Source of the DNA: Natranaerofaba carboxydovora
GTDB taxonomy: Bacteria; Bacillota; Natranaerobiia; Natranaerobiales; Natranaerofabaceae
Direction of reading: 5' to 3'
Assembly (NCBI RefSeq): GCF_022539405.1
Contig: NZ_CP054394.1
Span: forward strand, 994,501-1,058,500
Length of the DNA stretch: 64,000 nucleotides
The stretch's first letter is position 1. Every line of letters begins with the position of its first letter. Positions 27,490 through 53,997 of this stretch are shown here, piece after piece. The notes beneath the pieces are model-generated. The model saw only the letters and a program-made list of their open reading frames with translations, made no database searches and was not told where the DNA came from. The position numbers and the translations under genes are program-made.

Positions 27490-27490
27490 A

Positions 27491-37979: not shown

Positions 37980-38020
37980 ACTATATATATGTAAATTCCC
38001 ATTGAGGAGGAATGATTTTA

Positions 38021-40414
38021 ATGCATGACAAAAATTTGTTAGGTTATGTGGGCGATCTTCCAGAAATAACGCCACGTATTAAAAAATTGACCAATGATAT
38101 TTTAAACGCTGTTCCAGAAATTGATCCTGAACGGGCTAGACTTTTGACCCAATCATATAAAGAAACAGAAGCTTTACCCATGGTAATTAGGAGAGCTAAA
38201 GCCTTAGAAAAAATTTTGAACGAGATGACTATTGTTATTAGAGACGATGAATTAATAGTGGGCAATCAAACTACAAAACCAAGAAGCAGTCCGGTATTTC
38301 CTGAGTTTTCAAATAAGTGGCTCATGGAAGAGTTTGATAGACTTCCTAAACGCTTAGGTGATGCTTTTAAAATTTCTGAAGAAACCAAGGATGAATTAAA
38401 AGAAATTTTTAATTATTGGGACGGAAAAACTTCTAATGAATTAGCTGCATCTTTGATGAGTAAAGAAGCTGAACAAGCTCAAGATGCTGGTGTTTTCACA
38501 GTAGGTAATTACTTTTTTGGCGGAGTAGGTCACACAACTGTTGATTATGAAGAAGTATTGACATATGGATTTAAAGGGATAATTGAAAAAGCAAAAACAG
38601 AAAAAGATAATTTAAATGTAGCTAAACCCGAAGATATTGAAAAAGAGCATTTTTTAAATGCAGTAATAATTACTTTAAAAGCAGCTATTAATTTTGCTAA
38701 AAGATTTTCAAAAGAAGCTAAAAAGCTAGCTAAAGAATGTGAGGACAAAACAAGAAAAGATGAATTGCACAAAATTGCTGAAGTTTGTGATAAAGTTCCT
38801 GAATATCCAGCAGGAAGCTTTCATGAAGCCTTACAATCGTTTTGGTTCGTACAATTAATAATTCAGTTAGAGTCTAGTGGACACTCCATTTCTCCGGGGA
38901 GATTTGATCAATATATTTTTCCATATTTAAAAAACGATATAGAGAAGGACGATCTTACTCTTAAAAAAGCTCAAGAGATATTAGACGCTCTTTGGGTTAA
39001 ATTTAATGACATTAATAAAGTTAGAGATGAAGGGTCTACTAAAGCATTTGGCGGTTATCCGATGTTTCAAAATCTTATTGTAGGTGGTCAAACCCCTGAT
39101 GGACTAGATGCTAGCAACCTATTATCTTTTATGTGTTTAGAAGCTACAACTCATATAAAAATGCCACAACCCTCAATTTCAGTACGTATCTGGGATAAAA
39201 GCCTTGAAGAATTAACTGAAAAAACAGTCGAAGTAACTAAGTTGGGTCTGGGTATGCCTGCATACTATAATGATGAAGTTATAATACCTTCCCTTGTAAA
39301 TCGTGGTCTGACTTTAGAAGATGCTCGTGATTATTGCATTATTGGTTGTGTTGAACCTCAAAAAGGTGGCAAAACCGAGGGTTGGCATGATTCAGCTTTC
39401 TTTAATATGGCTAAAGTACTGGAACTTACTATAAATAATGGTGTTGAGAATGGCAAACAATTAGGGCCAAAAACTGGAGAATTTACCTCTTTTAATTCTT
39501 TTGAAGAATTTAAACTTGCCTTTGAAAGACAGATGGAATATTTCGTAGCCCTGCTAGTTAATGCAATAAATTCAGTGGATATAGCTCATATGAAAAGAGC
39601 GCCGTTACCATTCTTGTCAAGTATTATTCAAAACTGTATTGAAAAAGGAAAAACAGTACAGGAAGGTGGAGCTTATTACAATTTCACAGGCCCACAAGGG
39701 GTAGGAGTTGCGAACGTTGGAGATTCATTTGCTGTCATAGAAAAGCTTGTTTTTAATGAGCAAAAGCTTAGCCTTGAAGAACTTAAGAAAGCGTTAGACA
39801 ATAATTTTGAAGATGAAGATTTAAGACAAAAGCTTTTAAATGAAGTAGCGAAATATGGTAATGATATTGAGGAAGTGGACATGCTAACTAGAGAGGGCGC
39901 GTTAATCTATTGTAAAGAAGTAGAAAAACATACCAACCCAAGAGGAGGGATATACCAACCAGGTTTGTATCCCGTATCAGCTAATGTACCTTTAGGAGCT
40001 GCAACTGGTGCAACCCCCGAGGGAAGAAAAGCTAGAACTCCCCTCGCAGATGGAGTTTCACCTGTATCAGGTATGGATCGAAATGGGCCTACGGCTGCAA
40101 TTAACTCTGTAGCAAAACTTGACCATCATATAGCATCAAATGGAACTTTGTTAAACCAGAAGTTTCACCCTTCTTCCCTTGAAGGTGAAAGTGGCCAAAG
40201 AAATCTTGCTGCATTAATAAATGGCTTCTTTGATCAAAAAGGTTTACACATCCAAAACAATGTTATAGACAAAGAAACTTTAATAAAAGCTCAGAAAAAT
40301 CCTGACAAATATTCTAGCCTTGTGGTAAGGGTAGCAGGTTATAGTGCATATTTCACTTCTTTAGATAAGTCGCTACAAGATGATATTATTAACAGAACTG
40401 AGCAGAACTTTTAA
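38021..40414 (+). CDS. Glycyl-radical B12-independent diol (glycerol/1,2-propanediol) dehydratase
   Basis: 797 residues of the pyruvate formate-lyase family. The thiyl Cys is residue 443 in IIGCVEPQ, the Glu two residues on is the general base, and GKTEGWHDSAFFN follows as in glycerol and propanediol dehydratases. The radical Gly is residue 773 in RVAGYSA. These features favour diol dehydration over choline lyase or formate-lyase activity, but substrate needs testing. The ATG at 38021 has GAGGAGGAATGATTTTA before it; the in-frame ATG 38012 abuts the SD. Its activase follows. Confidence 0.88.
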   Translation: MHDKNLLGYVGDLPEITPRIKKLTNDILNAVPEIDPERARLLTQSYKETEALPMVIRRAKALEKILNEMTIVIRDDELIVGNQTTKPRSSPVFPEFSNKWLMEEFDRLPKRLGDAFKISEETKDELKEIFNYWDGKTSNELAASLMSKEAEQAQDAGVFTVGNYFFGGVGHTTVDYEEVLTYGFKGIIEKAKTEKDNLNVAKPEDIEKEHFLNAVIITLKAAINFAKRFSKEAKKLAKECEDKTRKDELHKIAEVCDKVPEYPAGSFHEALQSFWFVQLIIQLESSGHSISPGRFDQYIFPYLKNDIEKDDLTLKKAQEILDALWVKFNDINKVRDEGSTKAFGGYPMFQNLIVGGQTPDGLDASNLLSFMCLEATTHIKMPQPSISVRIWDKSLEELTEKTVEVTKLGLGMPAYYNDEVIIPSLVNRGLTLEDARDYCIIGCVEPQKGGKTEGWHDSAFFNMAKVLELTINNGVENGKQLGPKTGEFTSFNSFEEFKLAFERQMEYFVALLVNAINSVDIAHMKRAPLPFLSSIIQNCIEKGKTVQEGGAYYNFTGPQGVGVANVGDSFAVIEKLVFNEQKLSLEELKKALDNNFEDEDLRQKLLNEVAKYGNDIEEVDMLTREGALIYCKEVEKHTNPRGGIYQPGLYPVSANVPLGAATGATPEGRKARTPLADGVSPVSGMDRNGPTAAINSVAKLDHHIASNGTLLNQKFHPSSLEGESGQRNLAALINGFFDQKGLHIQNNVIDKETLIKAQKNPDKYSSLVVRVAGYSAYFTSLDKSLQDDIINRTEQNF

Positions 40415-40433
40415 ACTAAAATTAAATCTATAA

Positions 40434-40457
40434 AAGAGGCCCTTTTAATTGGGCCTC
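40434..40457 (+). other. Intercistronic hairpin between dehydratase and activase
   Basis: AGAGGCCC / GGGCCTCT with an 8-base loop and no U-tract. It probably stabilises or tunes the two-gene mRNA rather than ending it. Confidence 0.6.
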
Positions 40458-40490
40458 TAACAAAATTGTCATATAGGGAGGGGCTTTTCT

Positions 40491-41456
40491 ATCATTACTA
40501 ATAATTCTATTAATTATAAAGGCTCGGCAGACAGAGGAATGGTTTTCGATATTCAAAGATTTTCTGTACATGATGGTCCAGGTATTCGTACCGTTATTTT
40601 TTTAAAAGGATGTCCGTTATCTTGCTCATGGTGCAGCAACCCAGAATCGCAGCAATATGAACAAGAGATAATGTTTAACCCAAGCCTTTGTATTGAATGT
40701 AAAAAGTGTGTTGGCGCTTGTTCAGTTAAAGCTATTAGTTATGATACAGTAACTAGAATAGATCGTGATAGCTGTGTGAACTGTAAAAATTGTGTTGAAG
40801 TATGCAATAGCAGAGCTTTAGAACTTGCAGGTTATGAAGCTACAGTAGAGGAGCTACTTAAAGAAATAGCTAAAGATAAAATTTATTATAAACGTTCAAA
40901 GGGTGGAATTACCCTTTCTGGAGGTGAACCGCTTTACCAGAGCGATTTTGCTATTAACTTGTTAAATGCATGCAAAAGTAAAGGTTGGCATACTGCGCTG
41001 GAAACTTCTGGATTTGTGTCTCAGAGCTCGTTAAAAGAAGCCATTAACTTTTTGGATTTATTATTATTTGATATTAAATCCATGGATTCAACAAAAATTA
41101 AAGAGGAACTTAATGTTTCTAATCAAATAATTTTGGATAATGTCCAATTAGCAGCAAGGAAAGATGTTCCTATTATCATAAGAAAAGCAATCATACCAGG
41201 GTTTAATGACAATGAAAAGGATGTTAAGTCTACTGCTAAGTTTGCTAGGTGGCTCGGAAAGAATGTAAAAGGGATAGATTTACTACCTTATCATAGACTT
41301 GGTGAAAACAAATATAGATATTTAGGGAAAAAGTACCTGTTAGAAGGGGCAAAACCACCTTCTAATGATAAGATGCAAACTTTTAAAAAAATAATTGAAG
41401 AAGAAAGAGTTCCTGTAACTATAGGTGGTAGTGGTGGTTTTTATTTGGAGTTATAA
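40491..41456 (+). CDS. Glycyl-radical enzyme activating protein (radical SAM)
   Basis: It makes the Gly radical on the dehydratase. Motifs: the SAM cluster CPLSCSWCSNPE, then two ferredoxin-type clusters CIECKKCVGAC and CVNCKNCVEVC, and GGITLSGGEPLYQ. The first ATG (40539) begins at MVFDIQRFSVHDGPGIR, has GAGGA directly against it, and cuts off residues normally present. The frame is open upstream to ATC 40491 or ATT 40494, behind GGGAGGGG at 40476-40483. I therefore extend to 40491 (321 residues) and regard a non-ATG start as likely. Confidence 0.85.
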   Translation: MITNNSINYKGSADRGMVFDIQRFSVHDGPGIRTVIFLKGCPLSCSWCSNPESQQYEQEIMFNPSLCIECKKCVGACSVKAISYDTVTRIDRDSCVNCKNCVEVCNSRALELAGYEATVEELLKEIAKDKIYYKRSKGGITLSGGEPLYQSDFAINLLNACKSKGWHTALETSGFVSQSSLKEAINFLDLLLFDIKSMDSTKIKEELNVSNQIILDNVQLAARKDVPIIIRKAIIPGFNDNEKDVKSTAKFARWLGKNVKGIDLLPYHRLGENKYRYLGKKYLLEGAKPPSNDKMQTFKKIIEEERVPVTIGGSGGFYLEL

Positions 41457-41483
41457 CTACATTGAACTATAGATTTGTTGTAG

Positions 41484-43199
41484 TTATTTTAAACTATATT
41501 TACCCATTTTCTTCGATAAAGTTGTCCTATCAATATTTAGTTTTCTAGCAGCGTCAGATAGACTGCTGCTATTTTGGATAGCTTGTTTTATTAACCTAAT
41601 TTCATATTTTCGCACCTCATCTTTTAAACTTTTAAATTCATTACTATCCTTGCCTTCTAAAGCATTTTTTAATTCCAAAGGCACATCATGAAGTTTTACT
41701 AGTTCTTTTTCGCTTAAAAGTATAAGTCTTTCAATAGTGTTTTCAAGTTCTCTAACATTACCAGGCCAGTCATAATTGTAAAATAAATCTAAAACCTCTC
41801 TAGATATTGTTTTGTTTAAACCATGTTTATTATTGTATTTATCTAAGAAATGTAGGGTTAAAGGGAGGATATCCTCCTTTCTGTCTCTCAAAGGTGGGAT
41901 TTTTATAGGTATAACATTCAGTCTGTAGAATAAATCATCCCTAAATCTGTTTTCATCGGCTAACTTTTTTAAATCTTTGTTAGTGGAAGCAATAACACGC
42001 ACATTGATCTGACGTGGAGTGTCACTTCCTATTCTATTAACTTCTTTTTCCTGTAAAACTCTCAAAATTTTAACCTGAAGGTGAAAAGGTATTTCACTTA
42101 TTTCATCTAATAAAATAGTTCCTTCATGAGCAAGTTCAAAATAACCAGCTTTCCCCTTTTTTAACGCACCAGTGAAAGAGCCGGATTCGTATCCAAACAG
42201 TTCTGACTCTATTAGTGATTCCGGTATAGCACCACAATTAACCCTAATATAAGGCTTGTCTTTTCTATTGCTTATTTCATGTAACATTTTTGCGAAAACT
42301 TCTTTTCCAGTTCCTGACTCACCTGTCAATAATACTGTAGAATTAGTATTTGCAATTCTTGAAATGATTTCCATGGTTTTATTAAAAGCCTTACTTTTAC
42401 CAATAGCCTTTGCTTTGGCATTTTTAATTGATCTTAGCCTGTCAACTTCAGAACTAAACTTAATTGTTTTTTCATGTTCTTTTTCTAATTCTTTTTTGTA
42501 ATAACTTAATTCTGTGATATCTCTCACGTTTGTTACTACTTGAGTTATATTTCCTTTTGAATCAAAGATCGGGTTGCCTGTTACAATAACTTCCTTGCCT
42601 GTTTTTTCGATTTTTTGCATTATAGTTTTGGTTTTTTTTTCTTTCAAAGCAAGCAAAGAAACTGATTCACTGATATATCCTGCCTTCACTAAATCTTCCA
42701 TGTGTTTTCCTATAACTTCAAAGCCTTTTAGACCGGTGATTTTCTCATATCCCTCATTTACATATACTGTATACCCGTTTGCATCGGTAATATAAATTCC
42801 GTCGTATGAAGCCCTTAAAATGTCTGCAAGCATTTGATTCCACTCTAAATGTTTTTGTATATGGGATATGTCTTGAAACACTGAAACAGCACCGATGATT
42901 TTACCATCATTTTCAATTAAACTTTGATTAGACATTATTTCTTTTTCGCCAATCTTTATTCTTTCGCCAAGGTAATCAGTACCTTCTTCTAGTCTTTTGA
43001 GTAATGTGGAATAAGGCATAACTTCATTAATTTTTTTTTCTATAGCTTTTTCTTGTTTAATTTGAAGTATATTTTCGGCACCTTCATTGAAAAAAATTAT
43101 TGTGCCTTCACAGTTAATTACCAGTACACCATTATATATGCTATCTAAGATATTTTTATATAATTTATTGTTATTTTGCCTATAATTACTGTCACTCAT
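41484..43199 (-). CDS. PAS-PAS-AAA-Fis sigma-54-dependent activator
   Basis: 571 residues: two PAS domains (about 12-110 and 125-230), a coiled linker, an AAA+ domain (about 265-500) with Walker A GESGTGKE, loop SGSFTGA (Ser in place of the usual Ala in GAFTGA) and Walker B ILLDEISEI, and a Fis-type HTH at the end (LSDAARKLNIDRTTLSKKM). It should drive the two -24/-12 promoters on either side. The PAS domains presumably sense substrate, aldehyde or redox state. Minus-strand ATG behind GGGGAGGGGCAAAA. Confidence 0.92.
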   Translation of the reverse strand: MSDSNYRQNNNKLYKNILDSIYNGVLVINCEGTIIFFNEGAENILQIKQEKAIEKKINEVMPYSTLLKRLEEGTDYLGERIKIGEKEIMSNQSLIENDGKIIGAVSVFQDISHIQKHLEWNQMLADILRASYDGIYITDANGYTVYVNEGYEKITGLKGFEVIGKHMEDLVKAGYISESVSLLALKEKKTKTIMQKIEKTGKEVIVTGNPIFDSKGNITQVVTNVRDITELSYYKKELEKEHEKTIKFSSEVDRLRSIKNAKAKAIGKSKAFNKTMEIISRIANTNSTVLLTGESGTGKEVFAKMLHEISNRKDKPYIRVNCGAIPESLIESELFGYESGSFTGALKKGKAGYFELAHEGTILLDEISEIPFHLQVKILRVLQEKEVNRIGSDTPRQINVRVIASTNKDLKKLADENRFRDDLFYRLNVIPIKIPPLRDRKEDILPLTLHFLDKYNNKHGLNKTISREVLDLFYNYDWPGNVRELENTIERLILLSEKELVKLHDVPLELKNALEGKDSNEFKSLKDEVRKYEIRLIKQAIQNSSSLSDAARKLNIDRTTLSKKMGKYSLK

Positions 43200-43346
43200 T
43201 TTTGCCCCTCCCCTGATATTAATGGGTATTTTCGGACGATATGCTAGTAAATGTTAAAGAAATCACTAATGAATGTAATATAACAGCGGGTGATTTACCA
43301 TGCGATATTAGTATAGCATAGACATATGATTTTAACAACATAGACC

Positions 43347-43379
43347 GTGACATATTTCACTTATAGTGAAATATGTCAC
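43347..43379. promoter_or_regulatory. Double activator site, perfect palindrome
   Basis: GTGACATATTTCAC and GTGAAATATGTCAC stand five bases apart and together form a perfect inverted repeat extending to ACCGTGA...TCACGGT (43344-43382). It lies between the activator gene (-) and the alcohol dehydrogenase operon (+), so it could serve both. Confidence 0.6.
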
Positions 43380-43439
43380 GGTTGAAATATTTAGGCAATT
43401 AACACAGAAGGGGTTAACGATTGCGGGGGGTTGTGGTGC

Positions 43440-43453
43440 GTGACAATATTCAC
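43440..43453. promoter_or_regulatory. Third activator site upstream of the alcohol dehydrogenase
   Basis: GTGACAATATTCAC followed by GG, with the same GTGA-N6-TCAC pattern, 144 bp before the -24/-12 promoter. Confidence 0.5.
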
Positions 43454-43596
43454 GGTTTATAAATCAAATTAAAATAAATGACATCTAACATGGATAGTTG
43501 CGATATAAAAATACCTATAAAAATAACTCAAAGGATCCGCTTATAAAGATCTTTGTAAAATCTAAAAGTCTAAATTATTGTATAAAAGAAACTGAA

Positions 43597-43612
43597 TGGC
43601 ATGGTTTTTGCA
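43597..43612 (+). promoter_or_regulatory. Sigma-54 (-24/-12) promoter of the B12-arm operon
   Basis: TGGCATGGTTTTTGCA has GG and GC ten bases apart, matching the consensus closely, about 86 bp before the alcohol dehydrogenase start. Confidence 0.78.
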
Positions 43613-43697
43613 AGTTAAATAATTAGTAGAATTGTTGGAATTTTAATTAACTTTATTATGTTAAAAATTTTGATGCAAGTGAAAGGATGGAATAGCG

Positions 43698-44834
43698 ATG
43701 AATAATTTTACCTGGCTTTCACCAACACAAATTATATTCGGAAATGATTCCATTAAATCATTAGAAGAAGTAATTCAAAAATATAAAGCAAAAAACGTCT
43801 CAATAATTACCGACCAAGGAATAATGGGAACTGATATACTAGAGAAGGTCAAAAAAGTTATAGGGAAAGATATTGAGACAAACGTTTTCTGTGAGCTTGA
43901 TGGGGAACCTGATACTGACGATTTGAAAAAATGTAAACAACACGTCATTGAAAATCAAAGCGATGTATTAATAGGCCTCGGGGGTGGGAGTTCGATTGAT
44001 GTGGCTAAAGCTGTTTCAGTTCTAGTGACTAATGAATCAATTGGTTTAGACCAAAATAATGAAATAGAGAACTTAGGACTTCCTACTATAATGATACCTA
44101 CTACAGCTGGCACAGGAGCAGAGCTTACCAAGATATCCATCTTCTCAGGAGATAAGGTCAAATTAAGGTTAGTCCATGATTATCTATATCCAAATGTGGC
44201 TATCTGTGATCCTAAAATGACCCTTAGTATGCCAGGCAGTATAACTACATCTACAGGTATGGATGCACTTACCCATGCTATTGAAGCTTACACCTCAGTT
44301 AAAGCCAACTATCTCACCGATATAATAGCCTTTGAAGCAATCAAAAAAATCTATTTTAATATACGCACAGCTTATGCAAAAGGAGAAAATATTATAGCCA
44401 GGGAGAATATGTTAGCAGGTAGCTTACTTGCTGGGATGGCTTTTTCAAATGCAGGGGTTGGTGCAGTGCATGCTATGGCATATCCGATAGGAGGGAGCTA
44501 TCACATACCTCATGGTATAGCCAACTCTCTTTTGCTGCCTCACGTACTTGAGGCAAACTTTAATGGAATTGTTGAAAAGCTGGCAGTAATAGGAAAAACC
44601 TGGGGATTAAGAGGTGATTATACCCAAATAGATATAGCAAATAAAACCGTTGAATTAATTAAAAATCTGTCAACGTCACTGGATATACCCCAGCGTTTAA
44701 GAGACTTTGATATTCCTGAAGCAGAACTGCCTGAACTAGCTAAGGCTGCATCAGAAATTACCGGCCTTATGCAAAATAATCCAAGTAATTTGTCGCAGGC
44801 AGACTTACTAAAGGTTTACAAAAATGCCTATTAA
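43698..44834 (+). CDS. Iron-containing alcohol dehydrogenase (1,3-propanediol/1-propanol type)
   Basis: 378 residues. The NAD-site motif is IGLGGGSSIDVAKA; metal ligands lie in TGMDALTHAIEAY and AVHAMAYPIGGSYHIPHGIAN. In this locus it should reduce the aldehyde from the dehydratases to 1,3-propanediol or 1-propanol and recycle NADH. It is the first gene after the second sigma-54 promoter. The ATG follows GAAAGGATGGAATAGCG. Confidence 0.92.
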   Translation: MNNFTWLSPTQIIFGNDSIKSLEEVIQKYKAKNVSIITDQGIMGTDILEKVKKVIGKDIETNVFCELDGEPDTDDLKKCKQHVIENQSDVLIGLGGGSSIDVAKAVSVLVTNESIGLDQNNEIENLGLPTIMIPTTAGTGAELTKISIFSGDKVKLRLVHDYLYPNVAICDPKMTLSMPGSITTSTGMDALTHAIEAYTSVKANYLTDIIAFEAIKKIYFNIRTAYAKGENIIARENMLAGSLLAGMAFSNAGVGAVHAMAYPIGGSYHIPHGIANSLLLPHVLEANFNGIVEKLAVIGKTWGLRGDYTQIDIANKTVELIKNLSTSLDIPQRLRDFDIPEAELPELAKAASEITGLMQNNPSNLSQADLLKVYKNAY

Positions 44835-44869
44835 CAGGCAATAATTGAATTCTGGGAGGAGGAAAGGAA

Positions 44870-46606: not shown

Positions 46607-46780
46607 TAAGATTGACCGGGAAAATAAAAAATAAAAGTACATTACCAGTCATCTATTTGATTAGTTTTTGATTAGTTTGATTCTAAAAATATTGGAGGTG
46701 GTAACTTATCAATAATTCTTTCTAACAATATTGTTACTAAGATGATCTTAAAAAGAAAAATTTACGAGGAGGGAAATTTG

Positions 46781-48451
46781 ATGGCAAAAAGTTTGAGATA
46801 CAAATTTTATGATACTCAAAGACAGCTGGCTTTGGATGGCCTTGCCCAGGAAATGCCCGAAAAAGGGCTAATTGCAATGGATGGACCTAACGATCCAGAT
46901 CCAAGTCTGAAAATTGAGAATGGCGTAGTAGTAGAAATGGACGGCAAGAAAAGAGAAGAATTTGATATGATTGATCTATTCATAGCTGATTACGCAATCG
47001 ATCAAAGTATAGCTGAAGAAGTAATGGAAATGGATTCTTTAGAAATATCGAGATGGCTTGTTGACATTAACGTACCTCGTCAAGAAATTATAAATTATGT
47101 TTATGGTATGACTCCAGCTAAAGCCAATGAAGTATTAAATAACCTTGATGTGGTTGAGATGATCATGGCTGGTCATAAGATGAGAGCAAGGAAGACACCA
47201 TCTATCCAGTCCCATATAACAAATAGAAAAGATGATCCGTTGCAACTAGCAGTAGATGCAGCTAGTGCCGGGCAGCACGGGTTTACTGAGTTAGAGACTA
47301 CTGTAGGTATGGGTAAGTTTGCTCCAAGTAATGCATTAGCTATTTTAATAGGTTCTCAAGTTGGAAGACCTGGTACCCTTACTCAGTGTGCTGTTGAAGA
47401 ATCACTAGAGCTAACCCTTGGTATGAGGGGGCTTACTTCTTATGCTGAGACTGTATCAAATTATGGAACTGAAAGAGTTTTCGTAGATGGTGATGATACT
47501 CCATGGTCAAAGGCTTTTCTAGGGGCTTCTTATGCCTCAAGAGGGCTTAAGCTTCGCTTCACTTCAGGTACTGGTGCAGAATGTGTGATGGGCTACTCAG
47601 AAGGAAAATCAATGCTTTATCTAGAGATTCGCTGTATTATGATGACTAGAGCTACAGGTATACAGGGGATCCAAAATGGTGGTATCAGTTGTGTATGTAT
47701 GGCTGGTTCTGTTGCAGGTGGGTTTAGGGCTTTGATGGCAGAGAACTTATTTACGATGATGAATGACCTAGAAGTTGTATCCGGGAATGACTATCAGGTA
47801 TCAAATTCAGATATGAGACGTACTGCTAGATTACTTCCACAGTTCCTGGCAGGGACAGACTTTATTTTCTCAGGTTATTCATTCATGCCAGCTTATGACG
47901 ACATGTTTACTTCTTCAAGTTGGAACGGTGAAGATTTGGATGAGTATATAACTATGCAAAGGGACTTGAGGGTTGATGGTGGAGTTAAGCCTGTAGATGA
48001 GGATGAGTTCATAGCTCTGAGAAGAAAAGCGGGTAAAGTTATTAAAGATGTATGTGATGAATTAGGTCTGCCGCCTTTCACAGATGAAGCCATTGAAAAA
48101 TGTGCCATAGCTTTTGGTTCAAAAGAGACAGCTCCAAGAGAAGCAACAGATAATATTAAAGCTGCAGACATTATTATGGACCAAAAAATCACTGGACTTG
48201 ACATTGTTAAAGCACTAGCAAAACGAGGTCATGAAGATGTTGCAAATAACGTTCTAAACATGCTTAAACAGCGTATTTCCGGGGATTATCTACAGACATC
48301 AGCTATATTAGACGAAAACTTTGAACCAAGAACAGCTGTTAATGATGCTAACGACTATCAAGGACCTGGAACGGGCTATAGAGTAGAAGGCAAAAAATGG
48401 GATGAGATTAAAAATATTAGACAGGCATTAAAGGCTGAAGATCTGTTTTAG
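46781..48451 (+). CDS. pduC: B12-dependent diol/glycerol dehydratase large subunit
   Basis: 556 residues, the usual length. Motifs include AVDAASAGQHGFTELETTVG, MGYSEGKSMLYLEIRC and GIQGIQNGGISCV around the diol and potassium site. It converts 1,2-propanediol or glycerol to propanal or 3-hydroxypropanal using adenosylcobalamin. ATG 46781 follows CGAGGAGGGAAATTTG; the ATG at 46742 has no such site. The 174-bp leader contains an unused SD and a possible pseudoknot. Confidence 0.95.
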   Translation: MAKSLRYKFYDTQRQLALDGLAQEMPEKGLIAMDGPNDPDPSLKIENGVVVEMDGKKREEFDMIDLFIADYAIDQSIAEEVMEMDSLEISRWLVDINVPRQEIINYVYGMTPAKANEVLNNLDVVEMIMAGHKMRARKTPSIQSHITNRKDDPLQLAVDAASAGQHGFTELETTVGMGKFAPSNALAILIGSQVGRPGTLTQCAVEESLELTLGMRGLTSYAETVSNYGTERVFVDGDDTPWSKAFLGASYASRGLKLRFTSGTGAECVMGYSEGKSMLYLEIRCIMMTRATGIQGIQNGGISCVCMAGSVAGGFRALMAENLFTMMNDLEVVSGNDYQVSNSDMRRTARLLPQFLAGTDFIFSGYSFMPAYDDMFTSSSWNGEDLDEYITMQRDLRVDGGVKPVDEDEFIALRRKAGKVIKDVCDELGLPPFTDEAIEKCAIAFGSKETAPREATDNIKAADIIMDQKITGLDIVKALAKRGHEDVANNVLNMLKQRISGDYLQTSAILDENFEPRTAVNDANDYQGPGTGYRVEGKKWDEIKNIRQALKAEDLF

Positions 48452-48481
48452 TTTTCAAAATAAACGAGGAGGTGTAAGGAT

Positions 48482-49144
48482 ATGTGGCGTGAGGAAATTA
48501 GAGAGGAATACAAATGGAGGGCACACTTCCCATCTTCAATTCCGGCTAAATCAGCAATGTTTGACAAAGCAGAAGATGCTAAACAGCTTGACTTAAAAGT
48601 AAAAGAGCTAGGCAAAGCAGAAAAAGGAACAAAATCAGACGAGGTTGTTATTGGAATTAGTCCGGCATTTGGAGATAAACTATCTAAAAGTATTAAGGAT
48701 GTGCCTCATGGAACTATAGTGAGAGAAATAATAGCTGGATTAGAAGAAGAGGGAGTTAGTTATAGAGTGGTAAGGGTTCAATATTCTGCAGACTTAGGAG
48801 TTATTGGTAATGAAGCGGCAAAAGTTAGTGGCTCAGGTTTTTCGATAGGTATTTTGACTAAAGGGACATGTCTAATACACAACAAAGATCAGCCACCACT
48901 CGGTCCAATAGAGTTATATTCTGTTAGTCCACTTTTAACACTGCAAAATTATAGAGATATTGCTAGAAATGCAGGAAAATATGCTAAAGAGGAAACTCCA
49001 AGTCCAGTAATACAGCCATATGACGGTGAAGCAATCGGTGCATCTTTTATGGGCAAAGCTGCTGTTATACACTTGACAGAAGCAGAATATGTGGACTTAG
49101 ACGGTGATGTTATAGAATGTGAAATCGAATTTGAAGAAAAGTAA
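48482..49144 (+). CDS. pduD: B12-dependent diol dehydratase medium subunit
   Basis: 220 residues. EVVIGISPAFGDKL, YRVVRVQYSADLGVIGNEAAK and SGSGFSIGILTKGTCLIH match the cobalamin-binding medium subunit. The N-terminus (WREEIREEYKWRAHF) was compared by eye with microcompartment-targeting peptides and is not clearly one. ATG behind GAGGAGGTGTAAGGAT. Confidence 0.94.
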   Translation: MWREEIREEYKWRAHFPSSIPAKSAMFDKAEDAKQLDLKVKELGKAEKGTKSDEVVIGISPAFGDKLSKSIKDVPHGTIVREIIAGLEEEGVSYRVVRVQYSADLGVIGNEAAKVSGSGFSIGILTKGTCLIHNKDQPPLGPIELYSVSPLLTLQNYRDIARNAGKYAKEETPSPVIQPYDGEAIGASFMGKAAVIHLTEAEYVDLDGDVIECEIEFEEK

Positions 49145-49169
49145 ATTAAATGTACAGGGGGGTAAAAAA

Positions 49170-49589
49170 ATGCCAAAGCTAGATCCGAAAAAGGATTTCC
49201 CATTGGGTACAAAAAGAAAAGATTTGGTTACAACTCCATCAGGGAGCGGTATAGATGAGATAACACTTCAAGCTGTGCTAGAAGGTAAGATTAAATTTGA
49301 GGATCTTAGAATAACGCCTGAAACTCTTGAATACCAAGCACAAGTAGCTGAAGCCTGTAACAGAAAGTGGTTTGCAGAGAACCTAAGAAGAGCTGCAGAG
49401 CTGACGAAACTTCCAGATGAGCGCTTGTTAGAAATATATGAAGCACTTCGTCCTTACAGGTCTACTAAAGAAGAGTTAATTGAAATAGCAAAAGAACTTG
49501 AAGAAAAATATGAGGCAAATAATAATGCAAGTCTGATACGCCAGGCAGCTGAGGTTTATGAAACAAGAAAGTTATTAAAGAGAAGATAA
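49170..49589 (+). CDS. pduE: B12-dependent diol dehydratase small subunit
   Basis: 139 residues. DFPLGTKRKDLVTTPSGSGI near the N-terminus and EALRPYRSTKEELIEIA near the end are diagnostic. ATG 49170 follows CAGGGGGGTAAAAAA; the longer in-frame reading from 49119 would overlap pduD. It completes the C-D-E trio. Confidence 0.94.
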   Translation: MPKLDPKKDFPLGTKRKDLVTTPSGSGIDEITLQAVLEGKIKFEDLRITPETLEYQAQVAEACNRKWFAENLRRAAELTKLPDERLLEIYEALRPYRSTKEELIEIAKELEEKYEANNNASLIRQAAEVYETRKLLKRR

Positions 49590-49598
49590 AGTAAAAAA

Positions 49599-49640
49599 CT
49601 GCTAGAAAGATAAGCCTAAAATGGCTACTCTTTCTAGCAG
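49599..49640 (+). other. Intercistronic hairpin after pduE
   Basis: CTGCTAGAAAGA pairs with TCTTTCTAGCAG, enclosing AGCC/GGCT. There is no U-tract, so it more likely sets mRNA ratios (strong CDE, weaker downstream genes) than ends transcription. Confidence 0.65.
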
Positions 49641-49698
49641 AAACTAAAATAGGAAACGAGAGAATACTAATATATCATTAACCAGGGGGGAAATCAAG

Positions 49699-50307
49699 AT
49701 TGTTGATCAACTTTCCTACAAAAGTTTTCCAAAAGGACATCAGGGATTAAAGCAAGTATATTACGGATATGGTAAAGGAAAAACAACTGCAGCTCTTGGA
49801 TCTTTATTAAGAGCATCAGGGCGCGGATATAAATCTTGTATAATTCAATTTCTAAAAAGCAGCCGTTTTTATGGCGAAATAAAATCCTTGAATAATTTAG
49901 GTGTTGATATCTATCAATATGGGAGACAATGCAGGTACGATACTCTCATAACTCAGGACGAGATGAAATGTGTTGGATGTGGAGAATGTTTTGTAAGCAG
50001 TGAAAATTGTACTGATGAAGATAAAAAAGTTTTTGATATGGGACTAAAAAGAGCTATGAAATTTTTGGAATCAGAAGAATATTTTTTACTTGTATTAGAT
50101 GAAATACTAGATCTTGTTCAGTTGAAAATTTTATCAGTGGGAGAGATCAAATCATTAATCTCAATCAAAACAAATACAGAACTGATTATGACAGGTCATG
50201 ATGTTCCGGATGAAATTACTGAAGATGTTGACCTAATAACCGAGATGAAATCAGTAAAACATCCATTTGAAAAAGGCATAGAAGCTAGAAGGGGAATAGA
50301 ATTCTAA
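49699..50307 (+). CDS. cobO: CobO/BtuR-type cob(I)alamin adenosyltransferase, probable ATT start
   Basis: It makes adenosylcobalamin, the cofactor of PduCDE. The P-loop YGYGKGKTTAALGSL, LVLDEILDLV and C-terminal GIEARRGIEF identify the CobA/BtuR family. The P-loop lies before the first usual start codon in this frame (TTG 49888), so translation must begin upstream. The only candidate near an SD (AGGGGGG, 49684-49690) is ATT 49699, giving 202 residues. A Cys cluster (CVGCGECFVSSENC, about residues 94-107) sits in the middle, possibly a metal site. Confidence 0.85.
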   Translation: MVDQLSYKSFPKGHQGLKQVYYGYGKGKTTAALGSLLRASGRGYKSCIIQFLKSSRFYGEIKSLNNLGVDIYQYGRQCRYDTLITQDEMKCVGCGECFVSSENCTDEDKKVFDMGLKRAMKFLESEEYFLLVLDEILDLVQLKILSVGEIKSLISIKTNTELIMTGHDVPDEITEDVDLITEMKSVKHPFEKGIEARRGIEF

Positions 50308-50345
50308 AATGTATCAAACTATTTAATTGGGGAGGGAAAGCAATA

Positions 50346-51185
50346 ATGAATGATAAAGGTTTAATGCGTGAGTGTATTGCCGAGTTTATTGGGACCGCTA
50401 TACTTTTGGCATTTGGAAGCTCTGCAGTTATTACCTGGATGATACTTGGTGAAGTAGGAACCTACTGGGAGATGTCCCTGATATGGGGTCTCGCAGTGGC
50501 CTTTGCAGTCTATACATGCGGTGGGGTGTCAGGTGCTCATATTAATCCAGCAGTAACTGTTCCCCTTGCAATATTTAATAAATTTCCCTGGAAGAAAGTT
50601 CCTTATTACATTGTGTCTCAGGTTGCAGGTGCCTTTGCAGGGGCTGCATTTACTTTTAGCATGTACTTTCACATTGTTGCAGATCATGAAGCGCAAAACA
50701 ATATAGTTAGAGGTGGGCCAGAAAGCGTCGAAACTGCCTCTATCTGGTCAACTTATAATCACGCTGGTGCAAGCTTTATGCATGCAATTTGGATAGAAGT
50801 TCTTTTAACAATGATATTAGTTTTTGTTATTTTTGCGGTAATAGATACTTTAAACATTTCAGCACCTCAAGGTGGTCATGCAGCAATTATAATCGGTTTA
50901 ACAGTTGCAGCTATTGGTGGTGCCTGGGGTCCACTAACTGGATTTGCAATTAACCCTGCAAGAGACCTTGGACCAAAGATTTTTAAATTCTTTGCAGGCT
51001 GGGGTGAAGTTGCCCTGCCAGGGCCAGATTTTTATTTTATAGTACCAATAATTGGGCCTATCATTGGTGGGATTTTAGGGGCTTTTATTTGGACATGCAT
51101 ATTAAAGCCATATTTCTTGACAGATGCAGAGACAGCTCCAGAAGAAGCAGTTGAGGATATTGATAAAGAAGGTGAATTAACTTAA
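50346..51185 (+). CDS. glpF: Glycerol facilitator (aquaglyceroporin)
   Basis: 279 residues, six helices plus two half-helices with NPA boxes GAHINPAVT and GFAINPARDLGPK. The Asp after the second NPAR marks glycerol-type channels. The C-terminal tail is acidic (EEAVEDIDKEGEL). It would admit glycerol or propanediol for the dehydratases in this operon. The ATG follows GGGGAGGGAAAGCAATA. Confidence 0.94.
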   Translation: MNDKGLMRECIAEFIGTAILLAFGSSAVITWMILGEVGTYWEMSLIWGLAVAFAVYTCGGVSGAHINPAVTVPLAIFNKFPWKKVPYYIVSQVAGAFAGAAFTFSMYFHIVADHEAQNNIVRGGPESVETASIWSTYNHAGASFMHAIWIEVLLTMILVFVIFAVIDTLNISAPQGGHAAIIIGLTVAAIGGAWGPLTGFAINPARDLGPKIFKFFAGWGEVALPGPDFYFIVPIIGPIIGGILGAFIWTCILKPYFLTDAETAPEEAVEDIDKEGELT

Positions 51186-51237
51186 AGATTGTTTAAATAA
51201 TATTTGACTTGAAATTCTGATTTAAGAGGTGAGAATT

Positions 51238-51636
51238 TTGGATATTACTGCTGAAAAAGCGTTTGAAATTATAGAAAAGGCAAGTAAAAAAGCCAAAGAA
51301 ATAAATGTCCCAATGGTTATCGCTGTAGTTGATAGCGCAGGGCATCTAAAGGCTTTTAAAAGAATGGACGATGCAATCCTTGCTAGCATTGATATAGCAG
51401 CAAATAAAGCATTCACAGCAGCTGCATGCAAAGCAAAGACAGAAGACCTAAGTGAGTTAGCAAACCCGGGTGGCGAGTTATTTGGGATTAATACAACCAA
51501 CAATGGTAGAATTGTAACTTTTGGTGGAGGAATCCCTTTGGCAAAAGACGGTGAAATTATTGGTGCAATAGGAGTTAGTGGTGGCTCTGTAGAAGAGGAT
51601 GTTACAGTTGCAAAAGCGGGAGTTGAAGCTTTGTAA
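51238..51636 (+). CDS. GlcG/HbpS-family protein (PduO C-terminal-like domain)
   Basis: 132 residues. MVIAVVDSAGHLKAFKRMDD, FGGGIPLAKDGEIIGAIGVSGG and the rest match the GlcG/HbpS (DUF336) fold, which binds heme in some members and forms the C-terminal domain of PduO. Its neighbours suggest a role in cobalamin or dehydratase maintenance. TTG 51238 is chosen; GTG 51229 is within the SD AAGAGGTGAG. Confidence 0.88.
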   Translation: MDITAEKAFEIIEKASKKAKEINVPMVIAVVDSAGHLKAFKRMDDAILASIDIAANKAFTAAACKAKTEDLSELANPGGELFGINTTNNGRIVTFGGGIPLAKDGEIIGAIGVSGGSVEEDVTVAKAGVEAL

Positions 51637-51641
51637 GAAAA

Positions 51642-51673
51642 TACCTGCGGCGTTTGTTGTGCCGCAGGTTTTA
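51642..51673 (+). terminator. Weak terminator or attenuator before pduG
   Basis: ACCTGCGGC / GCCGCAGGT with a 9-base loop and a TTTTAAC tail. The tail is short, so partial read-through into the reactivase genes is likely. Confidence 0.55.
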
Positions 51674-51700
51674 ACAAGTAAGCATTAGGAGGGTCCGGCT

Positions 51701-53581
51701 ATGGTTTTGGTTGCAGGAATAGATATAGGAAATGAAAGTACCGAAATTGCCCTTGCTAAAATCGAAAAGAACAATGTTGAATTTTTGGCTTCACACCTAG
51801 TACCTACGACAGGAATTAAGGGTACTACACAAAACATAAAGGGTATAGTTAAAGGGATAAACGAAATATCTCAAAAAGCCAAAATAGAACCAGGTTCTAT
51901 AGATGTTATTAGGTTAAATGAAGCAGCTCCTGTTATCGGTGATGTTGCTATGGAGACAATAACCGAAACAATTGTTACTGAATCCACTATGATAGGACAT
52001 GATCCATCTACTCCTGGTGGAGAAGGCATGGCTGTCGGTCAAACTATTTTTATTGACAAGCTTGACTTAGAATCAAATTTAGAAGAATTAGAAGACAACT
52101 ATATTGTACTAATACCAGAAAACTATGACTTTGAGGATGCTGCAGCGATTATTAATAAAGCTATAGAATCAGGAGTTGCTGTAGAAGGTGCTGTTGTCCA
52201 AAAAGATGATGGAGTGTTGATTTGGAATAGGTTAAACAAAAAGATTCCAATTGTTGATGAAGTACGTGAAATTCATAAAGTTCCAGTTGATATGCTTGCA
52301 GCAGTTGAGGTAGGTTCTCAAGGGTCAAATATTAAACAGCTTTGTAACCCTTATGGAATAGCTACTATATTTTCCTTAACACCTGAGGAAACAAAACAGG
52401 TTGTGCCGGTAGCTAAGGCCTTAATAGGTAATCGCTCTGCCGTGGTTATCAGAACACCTAAAGGTGGTGTGGAAACTAGAGTAATCCCTGCTGGAAGCAT
52501 GGAGTTAAAAGGAGAGAACTTTGATCGGGAAATCCAATTAGATGCTGGTGCCAAGAAGATAATGACAGAGGTTAACAGGGTAAAACCCCTAAAAGATGTT
52601 GTTGGTGAAAGTGGTACAAATGTAGGTGGAATGCTTGATCAAATTAGAAGTACTATGCATGATTTGAGCGGAGTTCCATTAGAAGAGGTAAAAATAAAAG
52701 ATATACTTGCCGTGGATACTGCAGTTCCACAAAAAGTAAAAGGAGCAGTGGCTGATCAGTTTTATATGGAGAATGCAGTGGCTCTAGCTGCAATGGTGAG
52801 AACTTCAAAACTTCCTATGAAAGATATTGCAGATGAACTGTACAAAGAGATAGGAGTTAAGGTAGAACTAGGCGGCGTAGAAGCAGAGATGGCAATCCTT
52901 GGTTCGCTAACTACTCCCGGGGTAAGTTTACCCCTTGCAATACTCGACCTTGGTGCAGGTTCTACAGATGCTGCCTATTATCTTGAATCCAAAAAAGAAA
53001 AGCCAATAATTGCAGAACATGTGGCTGGAGCAGGTAGAATGGTGACTATGCTAATAGATCGCGAACTAGGTTTAAAAAATACTGACCTTGCAGAAAAAGT
53101 TAAAAAATATCCTGCGGCCAAAGTTGAAACCTTATTTACAATAAGACTTGAAGATGGGACGGTAAAGTTTTTTGATGATCCACTTCCAGGTACTTTGTTT
53201 AGTAGAGTAGTGGTAAATACACCTGAAGGGTTTGAAGAAGTCCCAGGTGCGAAAAGCATCGAGGAAGTAAGGAACGTAAGACGAGAGGCCAAAAAGAAAG
53301 TTTTTGAAGAGAATACTATTAGGGCTCTTGAAGATGTGATTCCTACTGGAAGTGTTAGGGACTTAAACTCTGTGGTTTTAGTAGGTGGCTCTTCTCTTGA
53401 CTTCGAGATTCCTCAAATAATAACTGCTCTGTTATCCGAATATGGTGTTGTTTCTGGTGCTGCTAATATAAGAGGGTATCTTGGACCCAGAAACGCTGTT
53501 GCTACAGGTCTTGTGATGTCTTTTGCGATGGAACAGCTAGAGGAAAATGATTGGAGGAGCCTAAAATGGAACAATATTTAA
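51701..53581 (+). CDS. pduG: Diol dehydratase reactivase, large subunit
   Basis: 626 residues of the DdrA/PduG family. VAGIDIGNESTEIALA is the actin-like ATPase phosphate loop; ILDLGAGSTDAAYY is the second; LVGGSSLDFEIPQ closes the site. It exchanges damaged cobalamin from PduCDE at the cost of ATP. ATG behind TTAGGAGGGTCCGGCT. It overlaps pduH by 16 bp. Confidence 0.95.
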   Translation: MVLVAGIDIGNESTEIALAKIEKNNVEFLASHLVPTTGIKGTTQNIKGIVKGINEISQKAKIEPGSIDVIRLNEAAPVIGDVAMETITETIVTESTMIGHDPSTPGGEGMAVGQTIFIDKLDLESNLEELEDNYIVLIPENYDFEDAAAIINKAIESGVAVEGAVVQKDDGVLIWNRLNKKIPIVDEVREIHKVPVDMLAAVEVGSQGSNIKQLCNPYGIATIFSLTPEETKQVVPVAKALIGNRSAVVIRTPKGGVETRVIPAGSMELKGENFDREIQLDAGAKKIMTEVNRVKPLKDVVGESGTNVGGMLDQIRSTMHDLSGVPLEEVKIKDILAVDTAVPQKVKGAVADQFYMENAVALAAMVRTSKLPMKDIADELYKEIGVKVELGGVEAEMAILGSLTTPGVSLPLAILDLGAGSTDAAYYLESKKEKPIIAEHVAGAGRMVTMLIDRELGLKNTDLAEKVKKYPAAKVETLFTIRLEDGTVKFFDDPLPGTLFSRVVVNTPEGFEEVPGAKSIEEVRNVRREAKKKVFEENTIRALEDVIPTGSVRDLNSVVLVGGSSLDFEIPQIITALLSEYGVVSGAANIRGYLGPRNAVATGLVMSFAMEQLEENDWRSLKWNNI

Positions 53582-53997
53582 CCCTAAAAGTGTCGGGAGA
53601 AAGAGAATACAAAAAAGAAGTTACTGGCGGTATATTTATCCTTGTTTATATAGATCCTTCCTGGCAAGATACAGAATTTGTTGAAAGTATTCTCTTCGGT
53701 ATAGAAGAAGAGCAAGTAAAAGCTAAAGTTTTCTTTGGGGAAGGTGATGGTTTGGATTTGGCCAGTAAGGCTGCAGTTGAGTCGAGTGCCAGAGTAGGTA
53801 TTGGCCTTGGGAAAGATGGGACTGTAGCACTTCATCATGAGAAACTCCCTTTAGAAAAACCTATTCAATCATATAAGTTTACAACGGATCCAGAAAAAGA
53901 TGTAGAACAGCACGATAAAATATGTGAAAAATTAAAGATAATTGGTACAAACTCAGCAAGACTTGTCAAAAAAGTACCCTTAAAAACTTTTAATTGA
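53566..53997 (+). CDS. pduH: Diol dehydratase reactivase, small subunit
   Basis: 143 residues. EGDGLDLASKAAVESSARVGIG is typical of DdrB/PduH, which resembles the medium dehydratase subunit and swaps with it during reactivation. ATG 53566 fits the SD TTGGAGGAGC; the TTG at 53551 is part of that site. This is the last recognisable gene of the diol locus. Confidence 0.92.
   Translation: MEQYLTLKVSGEREYKKEVTGGIFILVYIDPSWQDTEFVESILFGIEEEQVKAKVFFGEGDGLDLASKAAVESSARVGIGLGKDGTVALHHEKLPLEKPIQSYKFTTDPEKDVEQHDKICEKLKIIGTNSARLVKKVPLKTFN

Follow-up and report, generated by a model that had tools for sequence, protein, structure and literature searches.

A Natranaerofaba carboxydovora locus with genes for B12-independent and B12-dependent dehydratases and without microcompartment shell genes

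Microcompartments are usually explained as protection from the aldehyde that diol dehydratases produce. In Natranaerofaba carboxydovora a glycyl-radical dehydratase with its activase and a full B12-dependent PduCDE/PduGH set are encoded in one 16-kb stretch, which raises the questions of whether the two enzymes would be used in turn or together and of how their aldehyde would be handled. With a naturally shell-free locus that has two possible routes to an aldehyde and an aldehyde:ferredoxin oxidoreductase (AOR) family gene, one could test directly whether a shell is replaceable by rapid oxidation to the free acid. Such a locus could also serve as a small gene set for making 1,3-propanediol or 3-hydroxypropionate. 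We analysed the locus within a 64-kb stretch of DNA (the window) and against the whole genome, which consists of one contig of 3.26 Mb.

Two dehydratases in one locus

The first-pass annotation had described both dehydratase chemistries side by side, and this was borne out: every gene that it named has an open frame at its place, according to the ORF list and profile matches. It had omitted three genes, namely those for a sigma-54 activator, an iron-containing alcohol dehydrogenase and, just before pduC, an AOR-family protein. The genes of the locus are as follows.

38012-40414, plus strand: glycyl-radical diol/glycerol dehydratase (B12-independent), 800 aa; TIGR01774, 1r8w
40539-41456, plus strand: radical-SAM activase of the glycyl-radical enzyme; TIGR02494 (367 bits, above cut-off)
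41484-43199, minus strand: sigma-54 enhancer-binding activator with two PAS stretches; PF00158, PF00989, PF02954
43698-44834, plus strand: iron-containing alcohol dehydrogenase, proposed to reduce aldehyde; PF00465, PF25137
44870-46606, plus strand: aldehyde:ferredoxin oxidoreductase family (a tungsten enzyme family); PF02730 and PF01314, above cut-off
46742-48451, plus strand: PduC/DhaB1, large subunit of the B12-dependent dehydratase; NF011979 (864 bits, above cut-off), PF02286 (867 bits)
48482-49144, plus strand: PduD, medium subunit; PF02288 (90 bits, above cut-off)
49119-49589, plus strand: PduE, small subunit; NF011972 (211 bits, above cut-off), PF02287 (198 bits)
49699-50307, plus strand: CobO-type corrinoid adenosyltransferase; PF02572 on the part from 49888
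50346-51185, plus strand: glycerol-facilitator-type channel (MIP); PF00230
51229-51636, plus strand: GlcG/HbpS-like protein; PF03928
51701-53581, plus strand: PduG, reactivase alpha; TIGR04491 (884 bits), PF08841, PF18427
53551-53997, plus strand: PduH, reactivase beta; PF02288 (77 bits)

The glycyl-radical enzyme scored 879 bits against TIGR01774, above the cut-off, and its best PDB match was the B12-independent glycerol dehydratase 1r8w (1087 bits), followed by 9rco ('Glycyl radical protein', 1008 bits). For the alignment we used the positions that we take to be the radical glycine, the Cys-x-Glu motif and the diol-binding His/His/Ser/Asp residues. Glycerol-dehydratase positions H164, H281, S282, C433, E435, D447 and G763 are kept as H174, H291, S292, C446, E448, D460 and G776, and the position of Y339 is occupied by F. 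Since seven of the eight checked positions are thus kept, a non-diol substrate is unlikely. Assignment as HypD, CutC or sulfopropanediol dehydratase was rejected, with no NCBIfam equivalog cut-off reached and 1r8w as the nearest PDB entry.

For the B12-dependent enzyme all five dehydratase and reactivase subunits (large, medium, small and the reactivase pair) lay above Pfam cut-offs; PduD scored 214 bits against NF011616, under the cut-off of 248. PduE probably starts at the ATG at 49170, and PduG is the sole TIGR04491 match in the genome. The active-site residues of PduC are largely kept in an alignment to reference enzymes, from which it differs at two positions near the active site (V301 and Q337). 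The genome holds a second locus with a glycyl-radical enzyme and PduCDE. PduC of the window is nearest to a glycerol rather than a diol dehydratase structure, which we rejected as evidence on the substrate because PduC of the second locus and a BMC-linked PduC rank identically. The CobO-type gene carries the P-loop GYGKGKTT in frame upstream of any ATG, GTG or TTG, and this reading frame makes an ATT start at 49699, and with it a full-length gene, probable.

Shell genes, encapsulation signals and CoA-acylating dehydrogenases

Searches of the whole genome gave no match to either PF00936 (BMC domain) or PF03319 (EutN/CcmL), in agreement with the earlier claim that shell genes are absent; as controls, each of the two profiles was matched in two of 14 genomes. 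This absence had also been presented as unusual, which holds for our sample of the phylum, where 26 of 29 pduC-bearing genomes have BMC genes, but is overstated in general, as B12-dependent dehydratase operons with no adjoining shell genes are known outside the phylum.

No encapsulation-peptide pattern was found in PduD or PduE of the window, and altogether in none of the six PduD/PduE proteins from three loci (the window, L009 and L017) of the two genomes without BMC matches. In five BMC-linked loci, 8 of 10 PduD/PduE proteins showed the pattern when read from ATG, and all ten did so when the remaining two were read as the longest frame. The glycyl-radical enzyme of the window aligns with 5i2a such that residues 599-601 stand against chain residues 591-643, i.e. 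an insertion of approximately 50 residues in 5i2a is missing. Catalysis in the open cytoplasm, as the first-pass annotation had suggested, would fit PduD and PduE proteins of this kind.

The further claim, that the 16 kb hold no CoA-acylating aldehyde dehydrogenase, was borne out; for the whole genome it holds for the PduP/EutE type only. Among ORFs of at least 80 aa in the 16-kb locus we found neither this enzyme nor a BMC domain, and the genome-wide PF00171 search did not reveal a PduP/EutE-type gene. It returned two genes. One is a 417-aa ORF downstream of a glutamate-kinase-like ORF, which we read as ProA. The other encodes 513 aa at 234 kb, 0.8 Mb from the locus, next to two iron-containing alcohol dehydrogenases and one AOR paralogue, and matches TIGR01722 (CoA-acylating methylmalonate-semialdehyde dehydrogenase) with 586 bits against a cut-off of 448.5. 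The genome is therefore without a PduP/EutE type, yet not without any CoA-acylating dehydrogenase, and the methylmalonate-semialdehyde type might stand in for PduP, an option not foreseen in the test that the first-pass annotation proposed.

Upstream sites of the two operons

The activator gene is located between the glycyl-radical operon and the operon that extends from the iron-containing alcohol dehydrogenase gene to pduH. Upstream of both operons we identified copies of a palindrome, CCGTGA-N6-TCAC (exact matches counted), together with sigma-54-like -24/-12 sites.

37777-37792, plus strand: second palindrome copy before the glycyl-radical enzyme gene; overlaps a strong terminator-like hairpin
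37864-37879, plus strand: palindromic site, starting 100 bases 5' of the start of the promoter-like site of the glycyl-radical enzyme gene
37964-37979, plus strand: sigma-54-like -24/-12 site before the glycyl-radical enzyme gene; 9 of 12 consensus bases
43345-43360, plus strand: palindromic site, forming a perfect inverted pair with the next one
43366-43381, minus strand: palindromic site, partner of the preceding one in that pair
43440-43455, minus strand: palindromic site
43597-43612, plus strand: sigma-54-like -24/-12 site before the iron-containing alcohol dehydrogenase gene; 11 of 12 consensus bases

The five exact matches in the window compare with a mean of 0.01 over 100 shuffles. Genome-wide there are seven (three for the reversed-pattern control), of which five lie in the upstream regions of the two operons and the other two inside ORFs. 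The copy at 37777-37792 may not be an activator site, because of the overlapping hairpin; for the inverted pair (43344-43382) a terminator-like hairpin is scored as well, on the minus strand. With a criterion of at least 9 of 12 consensus bases, obligatory GG and GC, and a distance of at most 250 bases 5' of an ORF, sigma-54-like sites precede only 2 of 50 window ORFs of at least 150 aa, namely the opening gene of each operon; 11 sites with at least 9 of 12 bases occur across the 64 kb on both strands. For none of the 25 NCBIfam families listed did the activator reach the cut-off; against DhaR, which is a sigma-54 activator, it scored 245 bits (cut-off 551). The common palindrome and the sigma-54-like promoters suggest that one regulator probably induces both dehydratases together, so that B12-dependent and B12-independent enzymes of the same function would seem to be co-induced here rather than alternated.

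The first-pass annotation had instead proposed a switch, in which a shortage of cobamide would favour the glycyl-radical enzyme and an ample supply PduCDE. Both enzymes could plausibly yield the same product, and the cell does sense cobamide, as a cobalamin riboswitch, the sole one in the 64 kb, is present at 28626-28816. However, this riboswitch fronts an ABC transporter gene 9 kb upstream of the locus, and none was detected at either dehydratase operon (Rfam, gathering score, 64-kb window). The genome also encodes CbiC and neighbouring cobamide-synthesis genes and, with palindrome and promoter type common to both operons, a transcriptional B12 switch finds no support; a post-transcriptional preference, with PduCDE idle when its cofactor is missing, is possible. 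Altogether we regard switching by B12 supply as very unlikely.

Co-induction could also serve a division of labour, in which the two enzymes act on different diols, e.g. glycerol versus 1,2-propanediol or ethylene glycol. Unrelated enzymes behind common upstream sites would fit this, and the glycyl-radical enzyme of the second locus, with 979 bits against a sulfopropanediol dehydratase cut-off of 1000, indicates that one of other specificity may be paired with PduCDE there. In the window, however, most of the checked residues are conserved in both the glycyl-radical enzyme and PduC relative to reference dehydratases, whose substrate range covers glycerol as well as 1,2-propanediol, and the sequence holds nothing that would separate the two enzymes in this respect. 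Different substrates for the two are thus rather unlikely in our estimation.

Aldehyde disposal and comparison with known systems

The iron-containing alcohol dehydrogenase reached no curated (NCBIfam) cut-off, and its best PDB matches were a methanol dehydrogenase (8zrl, 221 bits) and, second by 2 bits, a 1,3-propanediol oxidoreductase (3bfj, 219 bits). On the same strand, 35 bases 3' of this gene and 135 bases 5' of the pduC ORF, lies the AOR-family gene. Its product also reached no NCBIfam cut-off and matched 9mqx (312 bits) and 1aor (281 bits). Of the residues that we checked, presumably Glu313, His448 and the cluster ligand Cys494 in Pyrococcus furiosus AOR numbering, the equivalents are kept as E324, H444 and C489. 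The cluster motif is CxxxCxxxC compared to CxxCxxxC in the P. furiosus enzyme, with Cys288 aligned to Gly, and the protein also differs at E332, D338 and H383. The CxxxCxxxC pattern is shared by proteins of L006-L008, the paralogue at 238 kb and a protein of genome G110; we know of no characterised family member from this subgroup. In named collections relatives of the window AOR were found in the stretches L006-L008, where the AOR itself is the only protein matching the window locus, and in the Acetoanaerobium record NZ_CP154629.1, in a stretch that carries no annotation. At the window locus a member of a tungsten enzyme family is placed where it could oxidise the aldehyde. There is precedent for tungsten enzymes oxidising propionaldehyde in the accessible part of PMC9424855.

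On balance we consider it probable that the locus is one shell-free regulon for diol or glycerol fermentation, with two operons flanking the activator gene and CoA-free dismutation of the aldehyde. We infer the substrates and the part played by the AOR-family protein as follows. In the presence of a diol or glycerol, the activator would bind the CCGTGA-N6-TCAC sites and fire both sigma-54 promoters, and the glycyl-radical dehydratase would be made together with the B12-dependent dehydratase, its reactivase and the adenosyltransferase. Both would release free aldehyde into the cytoplasm (glycerol giving 3-hydroxypropionaldehyde, or 1,2-propanediol giving propionaldehyde), of which the alcohol dehydrogenase would reduce one part to alcohol and the AOR oxidise another part to the acid, reducing ferredoxin. 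If the dehydrogenase at 234 kb takes this aldehyde, the AOR would not be the sole oxidative route. A bolder version, which we put forward tentatively and with some doubt, is that two unrelated radical dehydratases are by design run simultaneously under a single sigma-54 regulon, that a tungsten AOR and the iron-containing alcohol dehydrogenase replace microcompartment and PduP, and that the reduced ferredoxin from this dismutation could feed low-potential electrons to the activase and the corrinoid adenosyltransferase.

Alternatively, an ordinary shell-free dha-type operon might have landed by chance beside a glycyl-radical operon, with an AOR unrelated to diols and any oxidation of the aldehyde left to a different enzyme, for example the TIGR01722-type dehydrogenase. 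B12-dependent dehydratase operons without annotated shell genes do occur elsewhere, the segment between tepA and nptA-ftsK in which the locus lies is missing from both relatives of the same order, and with 12 AOR-family matches in the genome an AOR beside pduC could be chance. Among 34 pduC places, one has an AOR within 5 kb (approximately 0.67 expected). This alternative sits poorly with an AOR gene so close to both its neighbours on one strand, and with the common palindromes, which tie the two operons together and of which the genome-wide search found no copy near the 234-kb gene; we hold it to be unlikely. A recurrent pairing of glycyl-radical enzymes with AORs was rejected: for 33 glycyl-radical matches of at least 500 bits in 29 genomes (17 weaker matches left out), an AOR lay within 5 kb in 2 cases compared to 1.14 expected by random placement, and within 20 kb in 10 cases, with an expectation of 3.7 computed for 34 instead of 33 enzymes. 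The two close cases (G110 and G167) give no support, because their glycyl-radical enzymes lack the full set of diol residues.

Dha operons without shells are ordinary. The dha regulon of Klebsiella and Citrobacter (dhaBCE-dhaFG-dhaT) shares with the window the three-subunit B12-dependent dehydratase and reactivase pair, but only the window has an AOR in the operon and a glycyl-radical dehydratase operon with the same regulator sites; in the 16 kb none of the ORFs was recognised as DhaK- or DhaD-like. Plasmid stretches of Natronorubrum and Cetobacterium have similar dehydratase/reactivase sets with a 'heme-binding protein' gene beside the large subunit and, in Cetobacterium, an iron-containing alcohol dehydrogenase, and no shell gene is annotated there in the PLSDB tables, which are incomplete. 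Clostridium butyricum (dhaB1-dhaB2-dhaT) has a glycyl-radical enzyme and activase as in the window, and its enzyme is the closest among those with a solved structure, with identity at 282 of 467 residues in the compared alignment rows; to our knowledge its regulon includes no B12 enzyme. According to the available passages of PMC4777399, which do not mention microcompartments, the C. butyricum glycerol dehydratase is the B12-independent form and Ilyobacter polytropus has both dehydratase types in one genome, at separate places (ORFs 0052-0060 versus 1290-1294 and 2347-2351) unlike the single locus of the window. The PDU and GRM3-5 microcompartments use the same dehydratase families, but the genome gave no match for BMC genes or a PduP/EutE-type gene, PduD and PduE of the window lack the encapsulation-peptide pattern, and its glycyl-radical enzyme lacks the insertion seen in 5i2a; according to the portion of PMC6325248 at hand, GRM3-5 enzymes carry an insertion of approximately 60 residues that is predicted to act in encapsulation as the signal.

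AOR-family enzymes acting with alcohol dehydrogenases between acid, aldehyde and alcohol are described, in the accessible parts of PMC12096430, PMC10816221 and PMC12727526, from P. furiosus, Clostridium autoethanogenum and Thermoanaerobacter X514, where the aldehyde source is not a diol dehydratase as proposed here. A literature text search, with subscription papers mostly outside its reach, gave no paper joining aldehyde ferredoxin oxidoreductase with diol dehydratase; ferredoxin oxidoreductase with propanediol dehydratase and tungsten; reuterin with tungsten and oxidoreductase; or DhaR with sigma-54 and glycerol dehydratase. Two papers, PMC12096430 and PMC11365079, contain both aldehyde ferredoxin oxidoreductase and glycerol dehydratase; in the available text of the former, glycerol dehydratases appear as a mechanistic comparison only, besides a reference title. 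Among the other 28 pduC-bearing genomes of our sample, many of them fragmentary, none had an AOR within 5 kb or a glycyl-radical enzyme within 20 kb of pduC. Genomes with both dehydratase types, as in Ilyobacter, and shell-less dha-type operons were already known; new are the probable pairing of both dehydratases in a single regulon and the AOR as a possible CoA-free sink for their aldehyde.

Gene content and genomic setting of the dehydratase locus

The genome of Natranaerofaba carboxydovora, described as a haloalkaliphilic CO-using acetogen (PMC11332174), is a single contig of 3,264,732 bases, of which the window covers bases 994501-1058500. At 38012-53997 two plus-strand operons, with limits judged from gene spacing, flank a minus-strand regulator gene. 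A second pair of dehydratases is encoded elsewhere in the genome, in stretch L009.

First operon, plus strand: glycyl-radical dehydratase (GRE), activase
Second operon, plus strand: iron alcohol dehydrogenase (Fe-ADH), member of the aldehyde:ferredoxin oxidoreductase family (AOR), PduC, PduD, PduE, CobO-type adenosyltransferase, glycerol-facilitator-type channel, GlcG/HbpS-like protein, PduG, PduH
L009 (G000:C1:292000-311900), 1334-12155, 293-304 kb of the genome: GRE and activase, PocR-type sensor kinase and response regulator, glycerol-dehydrogenase-family gene, PduCDE, GlcG

The first-pass annotation had named its genes correctly but omitted the regulator, the Fe-ADH and the AOR; the gene content it reported, with B12-dependent and B12-independent dehydratases in one shell-free locus, was confirmed. 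The CobO gene is listed from TTG 49888, that is, without its first ~50 residues. The frame stays open further upstream and takes in the P-loop GYGKGKTT, which no ATG, GTG or TTG precedes. The gene is thus probably complete (49699-50307), with ATT 49699, 8 bases past AGGGGGG, as a possible start codon. The protein also carries an unusual cysteine stretch, KCVGCGECF.

No reactivase was seen in the L009 stretch and PduG occurs only once in the genome, so that PduGH of the window may serve both PduCDE sets. The GRE of L009 scored 979 bits for (2S)-3-sulfopropanediol dehydratase (cut-off 1000) and is near HpfG, yet it keeps the same seven residues as the GRE of the window (see below).

In two genomes of the same order, nptA and ftsK come soon after tepA: the gap is 296 bases in G001 and 2.5 kb, with a reverse-transcriptase-like ORF (labelled by inspection), in G002, whereas 22.2 kb separate tepA from nptA in the window (37523-59734). 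Because this gap is short in both relatives and PduC was found in neither, the locus forms part of a segment that they lack, inside a housekeeping block. The segment also carries MntP-, KAS III-, DUF169- and acyl-CoA-dehydrogenase-family genes, and TetR- and MaoC-like ORFs (labelled by inspection). A further block of ~19.5 kb between rnj and tepA (17025-36532) is likewise missing from both relatives, and the region looks like an insertion hotspot.

Enzymes, shell genes and a candidate pathway

The best structure matches of the GRE were 1r8w (B12-independent glycerol dehydratase, 1087 bits) and 9rco ('Glycyl radical protein', 1008 bits), with the rest lower. At the positions we presume to be important from the C. 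butyricum structure, the equivalents of His164, His281, Ser282, Cys433, Glu435, Asp447 and Gly763 are kept and Tyr339 is Phe. PduC, in what we take to be the residue numbering of Klebsiella glycerol dehydratase, keeps Gln142, His144, Glu171, Glu222, Gln297, Asp336 and Ser363, with Val301 replaced by Ile and Gln337 by Tyr. Compared with the P. furiosus enzyme, the AOR keeps Glu313, His448 and Cys494, and Glu332, Asp338 and His383 are changed. Its remaining cluster cysteines form CxxxCxxxC, a pattern common to the AOR relatives in three stretches from named collections (L006-L008), a paralogue at 238 kb of the same genome and one protein of G110. We regard it as a member of a subgroup without assigned substrate. 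Judged by sequence, both dehydratases and the AOR look intact. In structure ranking of the Fe-ADH, methanol dehydrogenase and 1,3-propanediol oxidoreductase were about level.

A whole-genome profile search gave no match to PF00936 or PF03319 anywhere, which bears out the earlier remark on missing shell genes; the lack of a shell alone does not make the locus a new kind. The encapsulation-peptide pattern was found in none of six PduD/PduE proteins from the window, L009 and G288, another genome without matches to microcompartment shell domains (BMC), as against eight of ten, read from ATG, from five BMC-linked loci; in the remaining two of the ten, PduD of L012 and PduE of L020, it appears in the longest frame. 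Aligned to 5i2a, presumably a microcompartment enzyme, the GRE of the window does not have the insertion of that structure. Such an insertion has been described as a predicted encapsulation signal (PMC6325248).

For the genome as a whole, absence of a CoA-acylating aldehyde dehydrogenase held in part. Neither of the two PF00171 genes of the genome is of PduP/EutE type, one being a ProA-like ORF, but the other, at 234 kb, scored 586 bits to TIGR01722 (CoA-acylating methylmalonate-semialdehyde dehydrogenase), above cut-off, and could in principle take propionaldehyde. It belongs to a cluster (L032, G000:C1:230000-244000, 3962-9838) with two Fe-ADHs and an AOR 53% identical to that of the window, an ADH-AOR pairing without dehydratase. 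Two further AOR-family matches (G000:C1:1865297 and 2212884) have equal scores of 281.9 bits and are probably a recent duplicate.

Beyond gene content, we infer the whole pathway from sequence. A diol would enter through the glycerol-facilitator-type channel and be dehydrated to the aldehyde by either dehydratase; the Fe-ADH would reduce part of the aldehyde to the alcohol, and the AOR would oxidise the other part to the acid with ferredoxin as acceptor. Oxidation of propionaldehyde by a tungsten enzyme of the AOR family, and its tungsten dependence in E. limosum, are described in PMC9424855.

Shared putative regulatory sites and cobamide supply

The window contains five copies of the palindrome CCGTGA-N6-TCAC (mean of 0.01 in 100 shuffles). 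All of them sit in two upstream regions, two copies 5′ of the GRE gene and three 5′ of the Fe-ADH gene. The whole genome contains seven exact matches, versus three for the reversed-pattern control; the two outside the locus sit within ORFs, and none is near the 234-kb dehydrogenase gene. Sigma-54-like sites (at least 9 of 12 consensus bases, within 250 bases upstream) precede only the GRE and the Fe-ADH among 50 window ORFs of at least 150 aa; the whole window holds 11 such sites on both strands. Two observations count against regulator sites: the copy at 37777 belongs to a terminator-like hairpin (z = -7.2), and the pair at 43344-43382, a perfect inverted pair with 17-base arms and five bases between, also scores as a minus-strand terminator-like hairpin, with a poor T tail. 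Without the 37777 copy, the palindrome at 37864 remains, 100 bases 5′ of the promoter-like site of the GRE.

The only cobalamin riboswitch found in the window (28626-28816, 113 bits) lies 5′ of an oligopeptide-type ABC transporter gene (28961-30673), followed by binding protein and permease-like ORFs; these genes may serve to import corrinoids or cobalt. The genome encodes CbiC, and five scanned neighbours include CbiJ, three tetrapyrrole methylases and a CobB/CobQ-type protein, so that endogenous cobamide synthesis is likely. Riboswitch placement, own cobamide supply and the shared putative sites, through which one regulator may control both operons, together argue for co-expression of the two dehydratases. 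The proposed switching between them by B12 supply was therefore not supported; a preference following cofactor supply without transcriptional control is possible. What makes the locus of interest is the putative shared regulon and the AOR.

Comparison with other genomes and known systems

PduC was found in 29 of 398 sampled genomes of the phylum, this one included. BMC matches occur in 26 of the 29, the exceptions being the present genome, G080, where the PduC match is partial, and G288, where the contig is only 8.7 kb. Many sampled genomes are in many contigs, so that neighbours may be missed in the following counts: a GRE of at least 500 bits lies within 20 kb at two of 34 PduC places, both in this genome (G249 has one at 26.6 kb, beyond the limit), and an AOR at two of 34, at 0.24 kb in the window and 15.6 kb in G175. 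In L036 (G110:C88) and L040 (G167:C35), the genes for GRE and activase adjoin AOR genes in the same orientation; these GREs are without part of the diol-binding residues and hence probably act on something else.

Both chemistries coexist with shells in G361: one of its contigs carries BMC genes and, next to them, a diol-type GRE 69% identical to that of the window, and a second contig has a B12 Pdu operon accompanied by BMC genes. On the former (L034, G361:C108:1-12136) an EutE-like dehydrogenase follows the GRE (575 bits to TIGR02518, cut-off 620). By eye an N-terminus in this entry (GRE / EutE-like dehydrogenase) resembles an encapsulation peptide; the pattern search gave no match. One BMC protein is identical at 99 of 102 residues to its counterpart on the contig with the B12 Pdu operon (L033, G361:C107).

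Beyond the sampled genomes, Natronorubrum and Cetobacterium plasmids carry, like the window, PduCDE-PduGH sets with no annotated shell genes in the stretch. Ilyobacter polytropus is described as having both dehydratase types at different places (PMC4777399), whereas the window holds both in one locus.
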